Shown in pieces: positions 7,724 to 13,229 of a DNA stretch of 32,983 nt. Position 1 is the stretch's first letter. Every line of letters begins with the position of its first letter. The translations under genes and the position numbers were made by a program. The stretch is taken from the NCBI GenBank assembly GCA_025361625.1, contig JANYKL010000138.1:1-32983 (forward strand), written 5' to 3'. Under the pieces are notes generated by a model. It ran no database searches. It worked only from the letters and a program-made list of their open reading frames with translations, and was not told the DNA's origin. The DNA comes from Acidobacteriaceae bacterium (GTDB taxonomy: Bacteria > Acidobacteriota > Terriglobia > Terriglobales > Acidobacteriaceae).

Positions 7724-7754
7724 GGCTGAATACCATCCGAATCCCAAAACGGTG

Positions 7755-7760
7755 TAGAAT
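7755..7760 (+). promoter_or_regulatory. candidate -10 element of the sigma/CHAT operon
   Basis: TAGAAT 23 nt before the TTG start of the sigma gene. No clear housekeeping -35 is visible. A TGAATACC stretch at 7727-7734 could belong to an ECF-type promoter, but its spacing is loose. Confidence 0.35.
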
Positions 7761-7783: not shown

Positions 7784-8467
7784 TTGGCGCAGAACCTGAA
7801 TTACCCATCTTCGGAGCTCGTGAAAGCTTGCGCGAATGCGAACGATGAAGTCGCCTGGGCGGAATTTATACGACGCTTCCAGCCGCTCATAGCCGGCGCA
7901 GCGCTCAGGACGGCGCGTATGTGGGGCGATATCTCGTCACCGCATCTGGACGACTTGATTCAGGAAACGTATCTCAAGCTATGCCAGGACAATTGCCGGT
8001 TACTGCGCTCGTTCGAGGGCAGACACGAAGATTCCATTTTTGGATTTCTGAAAGTGTTGGCCGCAAACGTGGTCCACGATCATTTCAAAGCGTCGCTTGC
8101 CGCAAAACGCGGCGCAGGCGTCCGAGCCCTTCCGTGCGCAGATCTCGAAACTGCCACGGACAGAGATGATAGCTTCACGGCGGTTGCACATCGCCTACAA
8201 ATGGAACGAATTAACCGCATTCTCAATCAGGTGACCGCAGGCAAAGATCAGGAGAGAAAACGAGTCATTTTCTGGCTCCGGCACCGACAAGGTTTTACCG
8301 CGAGCGAGATTGCAGCGCTCCCGGCGATTGGCTTGACGACGGAAGGGGTCGAAAGCGTTCTTTTGCGTCTTTCGGTCATGATCCGAAATCACCTGAATGC
8401 AACTCAGCCGCATCGGGAAGTGAAGGCTTTGAAGCGAGAAAATCGTTTTAAAAGTCACGGGAGTTAG
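7784..8467 (+). CDS. ECF-type sigma-70 family RNA polymerase sigma factor
   Basis: A 227-residue protein with the two-domain layout of ECF sigma factors. Region 2 (about residues 20-105) contains DDLIQETYLKLCQD followed by SIFGFLKVLAANVVHDHFK, the helices that bind core enzyme and the -10 element. Region 4 (about 145-215) contains GFTASEIAALPAIGLTTEGVE, a helix-turn-helix for the -35. The start is TTG at 7784, supported by GGAG 6 nt upstream and by conserved sequence beginning just after it; no better ATG lies upstream. Its stop is 1 bp from the next start, and the Shine-Dalgarno GGGAG (8459-8463) of the CHAT gene lies inside its last codons. Translational coupling, and regulation of this factor by the next protein, are therefore likely. 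Confidence 0.93.
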   Translation: MAQNLNYPSSELVKACANANDEVAWAEFIRRFQPLIAGAALRTARMWGDISSPHLDDLIQETYLKLCQDNCRLLRSFEGRHEDSIFGFLKVLAANVVHDHFKASLAAKRGAGVRALPCADLETATDRDDSFTAVAHRLQMERINRILNQVTAGKDQERKRVIFWLRHRQGFTASEIAALPAIGLTTEGVESVLLRLSVMIRNHLNATQPHREVKALKRENRFKSHGS

Positions 8468-8468
8468 G

Positions 8469-11400
8469 TTGGCCGATCACGGGGCGGGGCACATCGGGCG
8501 CGACGAACTGGCAAAGCTACTGGAACAATCGCGCGGCAACGCAGCTTCCCCGCTGCATAGGGCCGAGTTGCATCCTCAACTCGCGGAGTGCGCCGCTTGC
8601 CGGGAAGAGTTTATGGATTTGTCATTGCTCGACCGCCAATTGAAGATTGGGCAGATCGAGAACACGGCGCCGGCGATTGTTCCAACGCCCCATACTGTTC
8701 CAACCCCCAATAAAGATTGTCCAGATTCGAAAATCTGGCGCGAGATAGCCAGCGGGCTGACGAATTCCGAAGATACGCTCGCGAGCATTCAACATGCGAG
8801 CGGCTGTAAGTATTGCGGCCCTTTGCTGCACCAGGCAGTATCGGAAGTCAGCCGCTTAAATGAACCGTTGAGTGACGCGGAACGCGAGCGCATAGAAAGT
8901 TTGAGCAGCGCAAGCGCGGAGTGGCGGCAACGGCTGGTTCAGCAAATTACCGGCAAGGTTTTAAATTCAGAACGGAAGCCGATAGCACGCTGGTTAAAGC
9001 CGCTCTGGCGACCTCGATTTGCCATCTTAGCAGCGTCCTTTTTAGCAATCATTGCCGGTGCCGCATGGGTGCTTAGCAATCGGAGCGGGTCGGCAGTCGA
9101 TCGACTTTTGGCCCGCGCATACTCCGATAAGCGAACCGTGGAACTGCGCATTGCAGGAGCTGACTATGCGCCAATGCGTATTGCAAGAGGAAGTCAGTCG
9201 TCGTTTAGCGAGCGCCCTTCTTCGTTGCTGAAGGCGGAATCCATGATTGCCTCGGAACTGGAATCGCATCCGGCAAATGCGAAATGGCTGCAAGCTCAGG
9301 CGAAGGCTGACCTGCTTGAAGGGAAATATGATGCCGCTGTGGAAGCGTTGCGCCACGCTCAACAATTGGAGCCAGAGTCACCCGCGATCCTGACAGATCT
9401 TGCAACAGCCCATTTTCAACGCGCTCTGCAAGCGGATAAACGGGATGAGATCGGATCGGCTTACGAATACCTAAGCCAGGCTTTAAAGCTAGCTCCTGAC
9501 GATCCGGTTGCGCTCTTCAACCGCGCGATCGTGTCAGAATACCGGTTCCTCTACCAGCAGGCGCTCAACGACTGGCAGCATTATTTGCGGGTGGATTCAC
9601 GCTCGCAATGGGCGACTGAGGCAAGGGATCGGGCGGAAGCGCTACGAGAGAAAATGAAAAGGCGGGAGAGCAGGTCAGGCCCGCTGCTGTCTCCCGCCGA
9701 GATTGCCGCACTAGGAGCCAAGACGAATGTTCTGTCTGAAAAAGACCAGCTGAAGATTGATTCTCGAGTTGAAGAGTATTTGCAGGAGGCAGTTCGTTCA
9801 TGGCTGCCACAAGCCTTTCCCGAAGTTAAGCCCGAGGAGTCTCAAGTGAGTGAGGGCGCCCTGCGGGCGCTTTTTTTTTTGGCGGAGCTGACGAAACGGC
9901 GTCACGGAGACAGTTGGCTCTCGGACCTCCTCAAGAGTTCGTCGGCCCGTAACTTTCCCCTTGCTGCGAATGCTCTTGCACGTTCCGCCGCGGCCAACCG
10001 GTCAGATGACTACGATATTTCAGGGCAACAAGCCGACTTGGCGATCAGATTGTTTCGCGCTTCCGGCAACTCTGCTGGAGCCTTGCGCGCCGAGTTTGAA
10101 CGAACTTTTGCGGCTCAAATGGAACGGCTGAGCGACGGGTGTCGCGTCGAGTCAACTGGCGCGTTTGAGGAATCTCAAAAGTACTCCTATTTGTGGTTGC
10201 AGATTCAATTCGGACTGGAGGAGAGCGTTTGCTCGAGCCTGGCCGGAGATGTGGGAACCGACGAGAAACTATCCGACCAAGCGCAACGCCGCGCTGTCAG
10301 CAGCGGCTACGATGCACTCTACCTTCGTGCCCTCTTCTTCGCAGCCGATGATAGGCTTAACATCGGCGACCGAACAGGTGCGGCGAACCTCACCGACAAG
10401 GGACTCGAAAAATACTGGAGAGGACAGCTTCCAGCGCAGAACGCGCACAACCTTTATGCCGAGTCAGCCTACATTGCTGATGCAGGTGGCTGGCCTAATC
10501 TGGGACTTGCAACGTGGCAAGAGGATGCGGCGCTACTTGCCTCCGATGAAGACTTGCTGCGCCGCGCGTGGACGCAAAATTTTGCGGGCGACGCCGCGAC
10601 CGCCGCGTCGGAGCCGCAACTCGCAGTAGCACACTATGCTGAAGCGGTTCGGCTTATGGCTTTGACGCCAAGCACCGAAGCGAGCCGAAGTTTTGCCTTT
10701 GAAGCCGGACTTCGCACCGCCCGCATGCAGGCGCGTGTTGGCCATTACGACGATGCAATCCGGCGTCTAGTGCCGCTCAGGCAAGAGATTGGATCGCAAT
10801 CGAAGTTTATTGAGCAGCTTTTTTACTCCACGCTCGGTGAAGTCGAAGTTCGCAGAAATCGAGGAGCAGAAGCGGAACAAGCGTTGCTCCCGGCGTTGAC
10901 ACTCGCCGAAAAGAGCCTTTTATCACTCGGATCTGATGAGGAGCGCGCTACCTGGAGCAAGGACGCGGCACCCGCGTACCTCGCCATGTGTGAAGCGCAG
11001 TTGCTCCAGAATCGCATGCAAGAAGCGCTCAATACCTATGAACGGTACCTGGGAGCGCCGCGACGAGCGGGGACTGCTACGGGGGGTACCAGAAACGCGG
11101 TGCGGACCGTCGCGCTGTCAGAAGGGCCCGGATCTTCTGAATCAACCTCTAACCTGCGTTTACTGACAACTCAAACCATTGCGGCATTCGCAGCCCTGCC
11201 CGACGGATTGGCAATCTGGGTATACGACGATCGTGGAGTAAAGTCGCATTGGATTCCGCAATCCACCGAGAACTTGCAGAGGCTGGCGCAGCGATTTCAG
11301 GAACTCAGCGCCGATCCCAAGTCGCAATTCGCCGCCCTGCGCAGAGATTCCCATAGCCTCTATCAATCTTTAGTGGCTCCGATCGAAGCAGATCTGGCGC

Positions 11401-12161
11401 CAGGAAGAACGCTAATCATCGAGACGGACGGGTGGCTTGCCAGCCTGCCCTTCGAGGCATTGCTCAATTCCGACGGTCATTACCTCACGGAGCGGGTCTC
11501 AATCGTCCACGCGTTTGGGAAGGCGTTGCCGGCGCTGCCACAATCTGGACCGGGCATCTCCGTGCACTCGCCAGCGTTGATCGTAGGGAGCACGGCGTCA
11601 TCGCTGGCTGATGGCGCGCTGCCTCTTCCGGACGCCGGTCCGGAGGCAGAAGCTGTCGCGGGAAGATTCATTTCCGCCAATCTCCTCAGCGGCGACAAAG
11701 CCACCTATTCCGCAGTGCTAAAAGGCTTGCCTGGCGCTGCTGTCTTTCATTTCGCCGGACATTTGGTAACGACCACGCCGAAAGCAGGGCTGCTTCTGAG
11801 GGGTATAGACGGAACGACATCCCGCTTGATGGGTGGCGATGCTGTTCGTGGTCTTGACTTGCGCCGATTGCAGTTGGCAGTTCTCTCCGCGTGCGGCACT
11901 GCTTCTGACAAAGAGGATTCGAGCGGCTACGGCAACGTTACAGGCGCGTTTCTGCGGGCGGGCGTTCCGCACGTGGTCGCCAGCCGCTGGGCCGTGGACT
12001 CTACCGAGACCCGCCGGTTTGTCGACGATTTTTATAAATACGCGCTCGCAGGGCAGCCTATCCCGGATGCACTCCGCAGCACATCGCGAAATATGCTGGC
12101 TGATCCGCGCACATCTCATCCGTATTACTGGTCCGCATTCGCAGCGTACGGACGGCCCTAA
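8469..12161 (+). CDS. anti-sigma-type zinc motifs + TM + TPR + CHAT cysteine protease domain
   Basis: A 1230-residue multidomain protein. The N-terminus holds two cysteine motifs of the anti-sigma zinc-finger kind. The first is LAECAACREEF (Cys41, Cys44; the usual histidine is Gln, with His35 nearby). The second is canonical, HASGCKYC (His109-x3-Cys113-x2-Cys116). One membrane helix (about 183-203) divides it, so the N-terminus should be cytoplasmic and the rest periplasmic. TPR-like repeats follow (about 252-390) and more helical repeats lie at 560-880. The C-terminal CHAT domain (about 930-1230) has an intact dyad: His1098 in VFHFAGH and Cys1142 in LSACGT. TTG start at 8469 with GGGAG 5 nt upstream. 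An intrinsic-terminator shape lies inside the gene at 9856-9880. Probable role, inferred: sigma-factor control by proteolysis. Confidence 0.93.
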   Translation: MADHGAGHIGRDELAKLLEQSRGNAASPLHRAELHPQLAECAACREEFMDLSLLDRQLKIGQIENTAPAIVPTPHTVPTPNKDCPDSKIWREIASGLTNSEDTLASIQHASGCKYCGPLLHQAVSEVSRLNEPLSDAERERIESLSSASAEWRQRLVQQITGKVLNSERKPIARWLKPLWRPRFAILAASFLAIIAGAAWVLSNRSGSAVDRLLARAYSDKRTVELRIAGADYAPMRIARGSQSSFSERPSSLLKAESMIASELESHPANAKWLQAQAKADLLEGKYDAAVEALRHAQQLEPESPAILTDLATAHFQRALQADKRDEIGSAYEYLSQALKLAPDDPVALFNRAIVSEYRFLYQQALNDWQHYLRVDSRSQWATEARDRAEALREKMKRRESRSGPLLSPAEIAALGAKTNVLSEKDQLKIDSRVEEYLQEAVRSWLPQAFPEVKPEESQVSEGALRALFFLAELTKRRHGDSWLSDLLKSSSARNFPLAANALARSAAANRSDDYDISGQQADLAIRLFRASGNSAGALRAEFERTFAAQMERLSDGCRVESTGAFEESQKYSYLWLQIQFGLEESVCSSLAGDVGTDEKLSDQAQRRAVSSGYDALYLRALFFAADDRLNIGDRTGAANLTDKGLEKYWRGQLPAQNAHNLYAESAYIADAGGWPNLGLATWQEDAALLASDEDLLRRAWTQNFAGDAATAASEPQLAVAHYAEAVRLMALTPSTEASRSFAFEAGLRTARMQARVGHYDDAIRRLVPLRQEIGSQSKFIEQLFYSTLGEVEVRRNRGAEAEQALLPALTLAEKSLLSLGSDEERATWSKDAAPAYLAMCEAQLLQNRMQEALNTYERYLGAPRRAGTATGGTRNAVRTVALSEGPGSSESTSNLRLLTTQTIAAFAALPDGLAIWVYDDRGVKSHWIPQSTENLQRLAQRFQELSADPKSQFAALRRDSHSLYQSLVAPIEADLAPGRTLIIETDGWLASLPFEALLNSDGHYLTERVSIVHAFGKALPALPQSGPGISVHSPALIVGSTASSLADGALPLPDAGPEAEAVAGRFISANLLSGDKATYSAVLKGLPGAAVFHFAGHLVTTTPKAGLLLRGIDGTTSRLMGGDAVRGLDLRRLQLAVLSACGTASDKEDSSGYGNVTGAFLRAGVPHVVASRWAVDSTETRRFVDDFYKYALAGQPIPDALRSTSRNMLADPRTSHPYYWSAFAAYGRP
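9856..9880 (+). terminator. intrinsic-terminator-like hairpin with T10 inside the CHAT gene
   Basis: GCGCCC-TGC-GGGCGC forms a perfect all-G/C 6-bp stem with a 3-nt loop and is followed at once by ten T's (9871-9880). The run is read in frame as part of ALFFLAEL (about residues 466-473). The shape is that of a strong Rho-independent terminator or a slippage site, but it lies mid-gene in the sense direction. Confidence 0.6.
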
Positions 12162-12182
12162 TTCAACGACTAAGGAGACCTT

Positions 12183-13229
12183 ATGCACCGTGAACGCTTC
12201 CATCTTCGCCAGTGGTTGACCCTAGCGGCTGTATTTCTTGCGGCTCTTTTGCTCGTTTCTTGCGAAGAGAAACGGAATGCTCCGACTGGAACTCTCGCTG
12301 CCGCAAAAGTAGAAGTGTTCGTGCTCTTCGAGGGGCCGTGGGCCTTCGTCGACGATCCGCACGATAGCAACAGTGTCCTTGCGCTCGCGCCGAAATCAAA
12401 TCTGCACCGTCAACTCTACGTTTCGGCCTCAAACGAAGCGATTCTGGATGGTGGAATCTACACTCTTGCAGTGCCGCCGCACGGAACGGCTTCGAACGTG
12501 CCGAGTGAGGGTACCTTTGCGCAGGGGAAAATCAGCGCTCAGAGCCTGCAGCGAGCGATGGACGACAGGTCCGCACGGTACGTAATCAGACTTCCAAAGC
12601 CGGAGGGCTATATTGCAGCGAACAGGCATGTGAGCAGGGTCGGCCCCAACTATCCGCCGGACCCATCCACGGAGCAGAACTATGTGACGATCGTATCGCT
12701 GCGCTACGCGGTTGGGGCTCTTTCGGGATTCACTTTGTCCGGGAATTCTGACAGCGGGACCTTCACGCCGCTTGCCTTGGCAATAGAAACTCCGCAGATA
12801 CGTTTTGCTATCGAGCCTTCAAAGGTCGATGACGCGTCCGATCGGTGCCACCTGCATTCGCGGCAAGCTTTTGCGTCGACTGTTAAATTGCTCAATCTGG
12901 CTCTTTTTGTGGATTTCCCAGGCGACCCGTCGAGCTGCCAAGGCAGTGACCCGCAGAGGTCGCGGTCTGCTAACGCCGCGACGCATCGAAGCTGGCCTCT
13001 TCTGCAATTTGCGCGACAGGGAATTGAGCCCGCCCCCGGGCTTATCGCCAGCGAAGTCCAGCGACTTTCTCATAGCGCCGCAGTACTTGTTAGCGAGTTG
13101 GTACTTGCTCCACGTGACGGGCGGGGCCTGCCATGCGCCAATTTTATTTCTAACGACCGGCGACTAACGCCTGTCGCTACAGCTACGATCAAGCTTATTC
13201 TGGAGCAGGCGTCACTCCAACGGGGATGA
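12183..13229 (+). CDS. unknown lipoprotein of the sigma/CHAT operon
   Basis: A 348-residue protein of no recognised family. It starts with a signal peptide of the lipoprotein kind: basic HRERFHLRQW, a hydrophobic core, and the lipobox LLVSC with Cys27 as the likely lipidation site. The mature part has a conserved-looking beta-rich stretch (VFVLFEGPWAFVDDP, LHRQLYVSASNEAIL, GGIYTLAVPP; about residues 43-110), then a less ordered region with only a few cysteines. ATG 12183 has a strong AAGGAG (12172-12177) and follows the CHAT gene by 21 bp, so co-transcription is likely. By position it could be a substrate, sensor or cargo of the CHAT protein; that is inference only. Confidence 0.85.
   Translation: MHRERFHLRQWLTLAAVFLAALLLVSCEEKRNAPTGTLAAAKVEVFVLFEGPWAFVDDPHDSNSVLALAPKSNLHRQLYVSASNEAILDGGIYTLAVPPHGTASNVPSEGTFAQGKISAQSLQRAMDDRSARYVIRLPKPEGYIAANRHVSRVGPNYPPDPSTEQNYVTIVSLRYAVGALSGFTLSGNSDSGTFTPLALAIETPQIRFAIEPSKVDDASDRCHLHSRQAFASTVKLLNLALFVDFPGDPSSCQGSDPQRSRSANAATHRSWPLLQFARQGIEPAPGLIASEVQRLSHSAAVLVSELVLAPRDGRGLPCANFISNDRRLTPVATATIKLILEQASLQRG

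Follow-up and report, generated by a model that had tools for sequence, protein, structure and literature searches.

A conserved sigma-CHAT-X gene unit of Acidobacteriaceae whose CHAT protein carries a predicted anti-sigma-type zinc domain

The subject of this study is a set of three consecutive genes at positions 7784-13229 of a 32,983-nt stretch of DNA from an Acidobacteriaceae bacterium (contig JANYKL010000138.1), which was analysed as a whole and is referred to below as the window. All three open reading frames (ORFs) are on the + strand, as are the other window features given below: the first (7784..8467, TTG start) encodes a 227-aa extracytoplasmic function (ECF)-type factor of the sigma-70 family, the second (8469..12161, TTG start) a 1230-aa protein which combines zinc motifs, a transmembrane (TM) segment, TPR-like repeats and a CHAT domain, and the third (12183..13229, ATG start) a 348-aa lipoprotein of a family here called X, homologous to its relatives only to about position 12,980-13,004. 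The genes are separated by 1 bp (sigma/CHAT) and 21 bp (CHAT/X), and a Shine-Dalgarno-like sequence precedes each of them. Judging from its architecture, gene order, catalytic dyad and N-terminal homology to anti-sigma-type proteins, we conclude that this set is a conserved module with a predicted role in signalling. Locus (L) and genome (G) numbers used in the following are our own.

The sigma ORF passes two family models narrowly (TIGR02937, 43.9 bits with a cut-off of 42.9; PF07638, 21.9 bits with a cut-off of 21.1) and thereby belongs to the ECF/sigma-70 family by model match; it matched the CAS_III-E_sigma model at E 0.058 only. The window's genome holds a single match to this sigma factor and likewise a single match to PF12770, namely the CHAT (caspase-like) protease domain at residues 960-1228 of the second protein (11346..12152; E 3.5e-55). 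The catalytic residues His1098 (11760..11762) and Cys1142 (11892..11894) lie where a first-pass annotation of the window had put them, and both are kept in 46/46 aligned CHAT proteins, of which 23 form alignment A2 and 23 more distant ones were added by rough alignment. Domain match and dyad together place the protein among the CHAT peptidases, with predicted activity. Hydropathy revealed one hydrophobic segment at residues 184-202 (9018..9074), in agreement with the membrane helix claimed previously, while for the TPR-like repeats claimed alongside it Pfam TPR matches fall between residues 263 and 388 and a single-sequence model of the fragment (mean predicted local distance difference test score, pLDDT, 71.6) matched TPR chains at Z about 13, these being ordinary TPR matches, yet every Pfam match is under its curated cut-off, the best being TPR_11 (26.2 vs 26.8). 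We place the TPR block at about residues 263-391 (9255..9641); the homologous part of short proteins from two related loci (L101 and L103, described below) does pass the TPR cut-offs. A single-sequence model of the CHAT region (residues 905-1230) was discarded at a mean pLDDT of 39.9.

Among 45 solved sequences matched at E 0.001, the sole CHAT-named molecule is the 991-aa 'CHAT domain-containing protein' of PDB entries 8rot/8rw5 (E 1.6e-14); 8rot is not among the best 50 structure matches listed for the TPR-fragment model, which proves nothing. Just beyond the membrane segment, the protein carries the motif RTVELRIAGADYAP (residues 222-235; 9132..9173), in which R222 and R227 are each conserved in 44/46 aligned CHAT proteins and of which the RTLEAR part is also visible in 8rot_B. 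Cysteines C558 and C588 (10140..10232) may form a disulfide, as they co-occur in the 46 proteins: both are found in 31, neither in 14 and one alone in 1, although these counts include the rough alignment of the 23 distant sequences and are inflated by clade structure.

The three genes had been proposed to act as one unit, and genome context across relatives bears this out. Of 23 same-genus genomes, 18 contain a full-length CHAT orthologue (identity 46-56% for the 17 that entered alignment A2), and the resulting 19 loci, consisting of those of the 18 genomes (L033-L050) and the window, have the sigma gene upstream and X downstream of CHAT in 19/19 cases, X being cut by the contig end in L040 and L049; loss of this order was not seen. 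The tight spacing which had been taken as a sign of linkage applies to the window but is not universal, as the sigma-CHAT gap is 1-16 bp in 10/19 loci and 33-133 bp in 9/19, spacings which, like the start-codon counts given below, depend on the gene starts chosen by us. Since hemB lies upstream in 17/19 and miaA downstream in 14/19 of these loci, gene order within the genus is partly a matter of general synteny. That the conserved order reflects nothing beyond the synteny of a housekeeping region from hemB to miaA is nevertheless barely credible: it is already contradicted by distant loci, as paralogous and diverged units (L051-L054 and L058) have no adjacent hemB or miaA match and others occur in different genera and classes; moreover, three genomes have hemB and miaA without the block between them. 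In these, hemB and miaA share a contig and are about 260 bp (G015, L141), 1.3 kb (G018, L142) and 3.1 kb (G021, L143) apart, with no tblastn match to sigma, CHAT or X between them. Searches of the same genomes (completeness 85%, 92% and 96%, respectively) found nothing with the X profile, which does match G000 and G016, or with the sigma profile at E 1e-12, for which the controls G016 and G010 match, while CHAT matches were either none or to the CHAT domain only. All three genes are thus absent together in 3/3 genomes with hemB and miaA on one contig; in the other two genomes without the unit (G001 and G002) hemB and miaA are on separate contigs.

Beyond these orthologous loci, diverged second copies occur in G003 and G009 (L053, L054), with copies also in G036, G051, G033 and G037 (L051, L052, L056, L058). 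The sigma gene directly precedes CHAT in six of eight such loci (L051-L054, L056 and L058), the other two (L055 and L057) being contig-edge pieces in which no sigma gene was found. A phylum-wide search with a zinc-TM-TPR profile gave 53 matches in 34/396 genomes, so that the system is patchy. Twenty of the higher-scoring loci, from 19 genomes, were examined: a sigma-70-type gene lies upstream on the same strand in 18/20, among neighbours other than those in the genus, either directly before CHAT or before a short zinc protein (L101, L103, L113), while in L110 the sigma gene and a zinc protein are nearby on the other strand. By eye, at least three kinds can be told apart among the phylum-wide sigma factors; the factors of L102, L104, L106, L107, L111 and L112 are under the TIGR02937 cut-off, with weaker matches only. 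In L104, L106, L107, L111 and L112 the CHAT-linked N-terminus does not contain HxxxCxxC and each follows a sigma factor resembling another subfamily. In L059 (G052) the sigma gene adjoins a short zinc protein and the CHAT gene is divergent. A search for related loci in named genomes returned one TPR-like locus only (L032).

Zinc-type (ZAS) anti-sigma factors have one TM segment after an H/C-x(~24)-H-x3-C-x2-C motif, and their gene lies beside that of the sigma factor. The CHAT protein shows all three traits, its zinc motif 2 (C84-x24-H109-x3-C113-x2-C116; 8718..8816) being canonical with C84, H109, C113 and C116 all invariant in 23/23 aligned proteins, and it can be classed as a ZAS-type protein with putative sigma binding. 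The anti-sigma-type zinc motifs of the first-pass annotation thus hold for motif 2 but not fully for motif 1 (H35 ... C41-x2-C44; 8571..8600), which is degenerate in the window: Gln37 replaces the histidine of HxxxC, which is present in 18/18 other relatives that keep the motif, and the motif is missing in L045, L048, L050 and L058 of the same 23-protein alignment.

Two kinds of related locus indicate how this N-terminus is deployed. In the split loci L101, L103 and L113, a 303-333-aa protein with a zf-HC2 match over the cut-off, a hydrophobic segment and TPRs lies between the sigma gene and that of a TPR-CHAT protein, which is itself devoid of the HxxxCxxC motif; the window's family profile joins these short proteins to it (L101 E 1e-40, L103 3e-38, L113 2e-20). 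The corresponding short zinc proteins of L059 and L110 score 21.9 and 13.2 bits, under the zf-HC2 cut-off of 22.2. In all five of these loci the zf-HC2-type/TPR protein is encoded separately from a TPR-CHAT protein whose TPR ectodomain is paralogous, and contacts between their TPR regions might bring the two together. Conversely, four paralogous pairs in the genus (L146-L149; G001, G010 and two loci in G011) consist of a sigma factor which belongs with that of the window (E 5e-69 to 6e-68 with the sigma profile, among the ORFs of these loci), followed by a 376-406-aa ORF with the same zinc region (profile E 2e-17 to 9e-17) and, by eye, a hydrophobic segment. Their ectodomain gave no TPR or CHAT match and, read directly, has a CxxCH motif instead, so that TPR-CHAT occupies the place of another ectodomain. 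As this tandem-zinc protein ends in a cytochrome c-like CxxCH in L146, L147, L148 and L149 alike, it may be an anti-sigma factor that senses haem or redox state.

Sigma and CHAT protein distances correlate at r 0.87 over 23 loci (0/2000 permutations as high) and at r 0.57 over 18 same-genus loci (4/2000 permutations), to which shared ancestry contributes. Collectively, these data suggest that the N-terminus of the CHAT protein behaves as an interchangeable anti-sigma module. The same-genus pairs without a CHAT domain also lend something to the idea that TPR-CHAT is a mere sensor or scaffold, the sigma factor being freed when a ligand alters the shape of TPR-CHAT, or else by envelope proteases of a general kind, without any need for CHAT catalysis; the retention of His and Cys in 46/46 otherwise divergent proteins argues for catalysis, and we regard this explanation as improbable.

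With regard to the third gene, a lipobox with Cys27 (LVSC; 12261..12263) is apparent in the window's ORF, at a position of alignment A3 with at least 90% conservation; L051 does not have it. The previous call of a lipoprotein gene at 12183-13229 stands in this respect, yet the ORF leaves the frame of its family: by tblastn, the in-frame alignment of five relatives ends at 12,977-13,004, and the conserved C-terminal segment, including a near-terminal Cys (13129-13131), lies at 13087..13158 in another frame. The frame changes between about 12,980 and 13,086, and the last ~80 residues of the ORF consequently have no counterpart in the family. This could be an assembly indel, or a real change or broken gene in this genome; X of L041 is likewise split over two frames.

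In the searches made, X, a hitherto undescribed protein family, had no match better than chance in Pfam, PHROGs or the PDB. The window's X has no Pfam, NCBIfam or PADLOC match; ten X or X-like proteins, five of them of the joined family, gave nothing over cut-off with Pfam and PHROGs (best a TAT signal at E 0.03 and DUF6506 at E 0.31); and PDB searches returned four matches at E 0.14-0.57 with alignment A3 and none with A5 even at E values up to 3. Starting from 13 same-genus lipoproteins, a profile was built and run for six rounds (E < 0.01) on 730 ORFs, which came from all six frames of distant loci and include 23 labelled as genes downstream of CHAT. The profile took in 11/23 of the latter (L051-L055, L058 and L095-L099) together with a second, tandem X of L055, and recruited no other ORF of the 730, which serves as a control for drift, although a small database can drift; in the first round alone the top three were the CHAT-downstream genes of L051, L055 (second X) and L098. 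A class-wide search with the profile gave 13 matches in 11/250 genomes, all 13 after CHAT. Nine of the 11 genomes were known beforehand, and the new ones, G606 and G598, both have the order sigma-CHAT-X; the contig of G033 begins inside CHAT, leaving the sigma gene out of view there. X as a single phylum-wide family was rejected, as the genes of L100-L107, L109, L110, L112 and L113 were not joined by the profile. These 12 are X-like in size and position, and 10/12 (not L101 and L103) have a Cys in the last 30 residues, which is no proof of kinship. Overall, such a Cys is found in 36/38 X or X-like proteins and in 97/292 background ORFs, a count which is no probability because the sequences are related and 12 of them are unjoined to the profile.

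The location predicted for X varies. Within the genus X carries a lipobox, as it does in L098 and in one of the two tandem copies of L055 (the second), whereas L051, L052 and L099 show, by eye, a signal of Sec or Tat type. This variation bears on the possibility that CHAT is an output rather than a regulator, whereby the sigma factor and zinc domain would set the level of the operon and the protease would cut X, for example near its conserved C-terminal Cys, X then having a function in the envelope or the cell that might relate to stress or defence. The constancy of X after CHAT (19/19 same-genus loci and the 11 distant loci joining the profile), the frequent C-terminal Cys, and a weak match of the CHAT domain to the PADLOC SAVED_CHAT model (E 1.4e-4) would all accord with such a role. 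On the other hand, the CHAT anchor is constant where X location is not, no cleavage site is recognisable in X, and no defence-related Pfam family was judged present among the 19 window ORFs scanned (PADLOC was applied to three proteins only); we deem this explanation unlikely, if less so than that of a mere scaffold.

The reading which we prefer, at a probability of roughly one half, is that the 1230-aa protein would be a membrane anti-sigma factor of the zinc type with a TPR-CHAT protease as its sensor half, in place of the usual sensor ectodomain, and that the sigma factor would be released via regulated proteolysis. We infer the binding, the cleavage, the substrate, and the signal with its direction. 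At rest, the zinc motif 2 domain would hold the ECF sigma factor at the membrane. A cue acting on the TPR solenoid, with or through X, might then activate CHAT, by analogy with Csx29 of type III-E CRISPR systems, where the TPR part gates the CHAT site. CHAT would start regulated proteolysis, most likely by cutting the membrane-proximal ectodomain of its own or a neighbouring subunit, after which a site-2 protease would free the zinc domain together with the sigma factor; X would be a dedicated partner that serves as a ligand, as a chaperone or as another substrate. In this respect, self-cleavage close to R222 and R227 of the juxtamembrane Arg motif is attractive. Given a cytoplasmic zinc domain and one TM segment, TPR-CHAT would be periplasmic, which is supported by the scarcity of ectodomain cysteines (just 3-6 in about 1000 residues in 23 proteins) and by the paired presence or absence of C558 and C588 described above.

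Several observations weigh against this preferred reading. The charges flanking the TM segment favour neither orientation (the N side is richer in K/R in 11/23), and the window's zinc region scores 8.5 bits with zf-HC2 (PF13490), under the cut-off of 22.2, passing which is a detection aid and not a defining trait. The paralogous sigma/zinc pairs L146-L149 manage without CHAT, one CHAT gene (L105) has no upstream sigma match, and one sigma-CHAT locus (L094) has no X. The juxtamembrane Arg motif is kept in the CHAT proteins of L101 and L103, which have no zinc motif, and may for that reason be structural; it is not obviously a cut site for sigma release. M50 (site-2 type) homologues are present in the window's genome and in all 14 control genomes too, so that their presence lends little weight. 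Finally, 7/12 distant X proteins from 11 loci (L053, L054, the first X of L055, L058, L095, L096 and L097) have no signal peptide visible by eye and fit poorly with a model of X as a periplasmic partner. The suggestion that protease action controls the adjacent sigma factor retains the backing of the conserved unit, the interchangeable anti-sigma-type N-terminus and the dyad, whereas the suggestion that the lipoprotein is the CHAT substrate is weakened, because an X without a signal peptide would not necessarily encounter CHAT in the periplasm.

Upstream of the sigma gene, the -10-like element TGTAGAAT (7753..7760) was recognised by same-genus alignment, TGTARAAT being found at the matching place in 14/19 sigma upstream regions. 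Since TGTARAAT occurs once in the window with 0.91 expected by chance, the weight of this element lies in the alignment. A regulon search with TTTGTARAATCCRCC, allowing 1 mismatch in 8 genomes, gave 6 matches vs 6 for the reversed control pattern, and 2 of the 6 are the sigma promoter itself; no regulon is claimed on this basis. A hairpin masking the Shine-Dalgarno sequence of the sigma gene was rejected as too weak (mean z -0.81 over 19 loci, below -1 in 8/19). In same-genus loci the start codon is TTG in 17/19 for sigma and 17/19 for CHAT, with GTG in the remaining two of each, and ATG in 18/18 located cases for X; the conserved weak TTG start may keep sigma and anti-sigma levels low and balanced.

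The neighbours of the unit in the window are ordinary, with hemB and a histidine kinase upstream and miaA and a GH3 enzyme downstream (Pfam, NCBIfam). Elsewhere in the genus, another CHAT protein of about 1000 aa (L060:6693-10222, minus strand), outside the studied family, overlaps an ORF that weakly matches the sigma profile (E 8e-4). At L094 the gene after CHAT is convergent on the opposite strand (L094:10200-11590, minus strand) and by eye looks like a cysteine protease of the clostripain type.

Proteases of the caspase-like CHAT type are widespread in bacteria, and to our knowledge few of them have a known input or substrate. The conserved genetics described here ties a CHAT protease to an anti-sigma-type domain in the same polypeptide, and its output would therefore be measurable as sigma-dependent transcription. 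The sigma-CHAT-X association is real, exceeds chance as judged by conservation and is more interesting than a single locus suggests; its recurrence in related genomes suggests that protein cutting, by a protease of predicted activity, controls a sigma switch.

In ZAS-type anti-sigma factors the protease is normally a separate protein. The window's protein resembles these membrane anti-sigma factors in its zinc motif, its single TM segment and the position of its gene right after that of the ECF sigma factor, and differs in having the protease built into the anti-sigma-like chain. Membrane anti-sigma factors released by regulated proteolysis include RseA and RsiW (PMC10028731). No description of an anti-sigma/CHAT fusion in one chain was found in the literature searched, which was available in part, with bioRxiv and most subscription papers lying outside the search. 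The 8rot/8rw5 protein shares with the window's protein, in alignment, an HxxxCxxC N-terminus, a hydrophobic segment, the RTLEAR juxtamembrane motif, and TPR-like and CHAT stretches.

The mechanism was previously regarded as not known, a view which two sources make harder to maintain, since an ECF54-CHAT context is in print (PMC8999054) and Csx29 frees an ECF sigma factor (PMC10028731). ECF54 sigma factors are described as having CHAT, subtilase or carboxypeptidase neighbours, with proteolytic control proposed (PMC8999054), and thus resemble the present system in having an ECF sigma factor with a CHAT gene in its context. Compared by description, they differ in that the ECF54 group, with a Geodermatophilus example, is presented there without an anti-sigma factor, whereas the CHAT protein studied here carries an anti-sigma-like domain.

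Craspase, which is similar in logic, partly anticipates the principle. In type III-E CRISPR, the TPR-CHAT protease Csx29 (H615/C658) cuts Csx30, a protein that binds and inhibits CASP-sigma (PMC10028731). Both systems have a TPR-CHAT protein with a His/Cys dyad (43 residues apart in Csx29, 44 here) and a link to an ECF-type sigma factor, Csx29 acting on a sigma inhibitor. The unit is no member of Craspase, which pairs Cas7-11 and Csx30 genes with the TPR-CHAT gene, because no Cas family was found among the 19 window ORFs scanned with Pfam (CRISPR arrays were not searched for). The boldest version of our reading, in which one chain would be both an anti-sigma factor and a caspase-like protease ending its own inhibition, with CHAT, under the control of the TPR ectodomain and of the undescribed partner family X, serving as an internal site-1 protease, and in which the logic of this self-cleaving transcription switch, scattered through the phylum, may be ancestral to that of Craspase's sigma arm, is put forward tentatively and is on balance unlikely. 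Csx29 is complexed with an RNA-guided nuclease and its Csx30 inhibitor is separate, whereas here the inhibitor-like zinc domain, the anchor and the protease lie on one chain, an arrangement which would link the proteolytic sigma control of type III-E CRISPR to a membrane system outside CRISPR.

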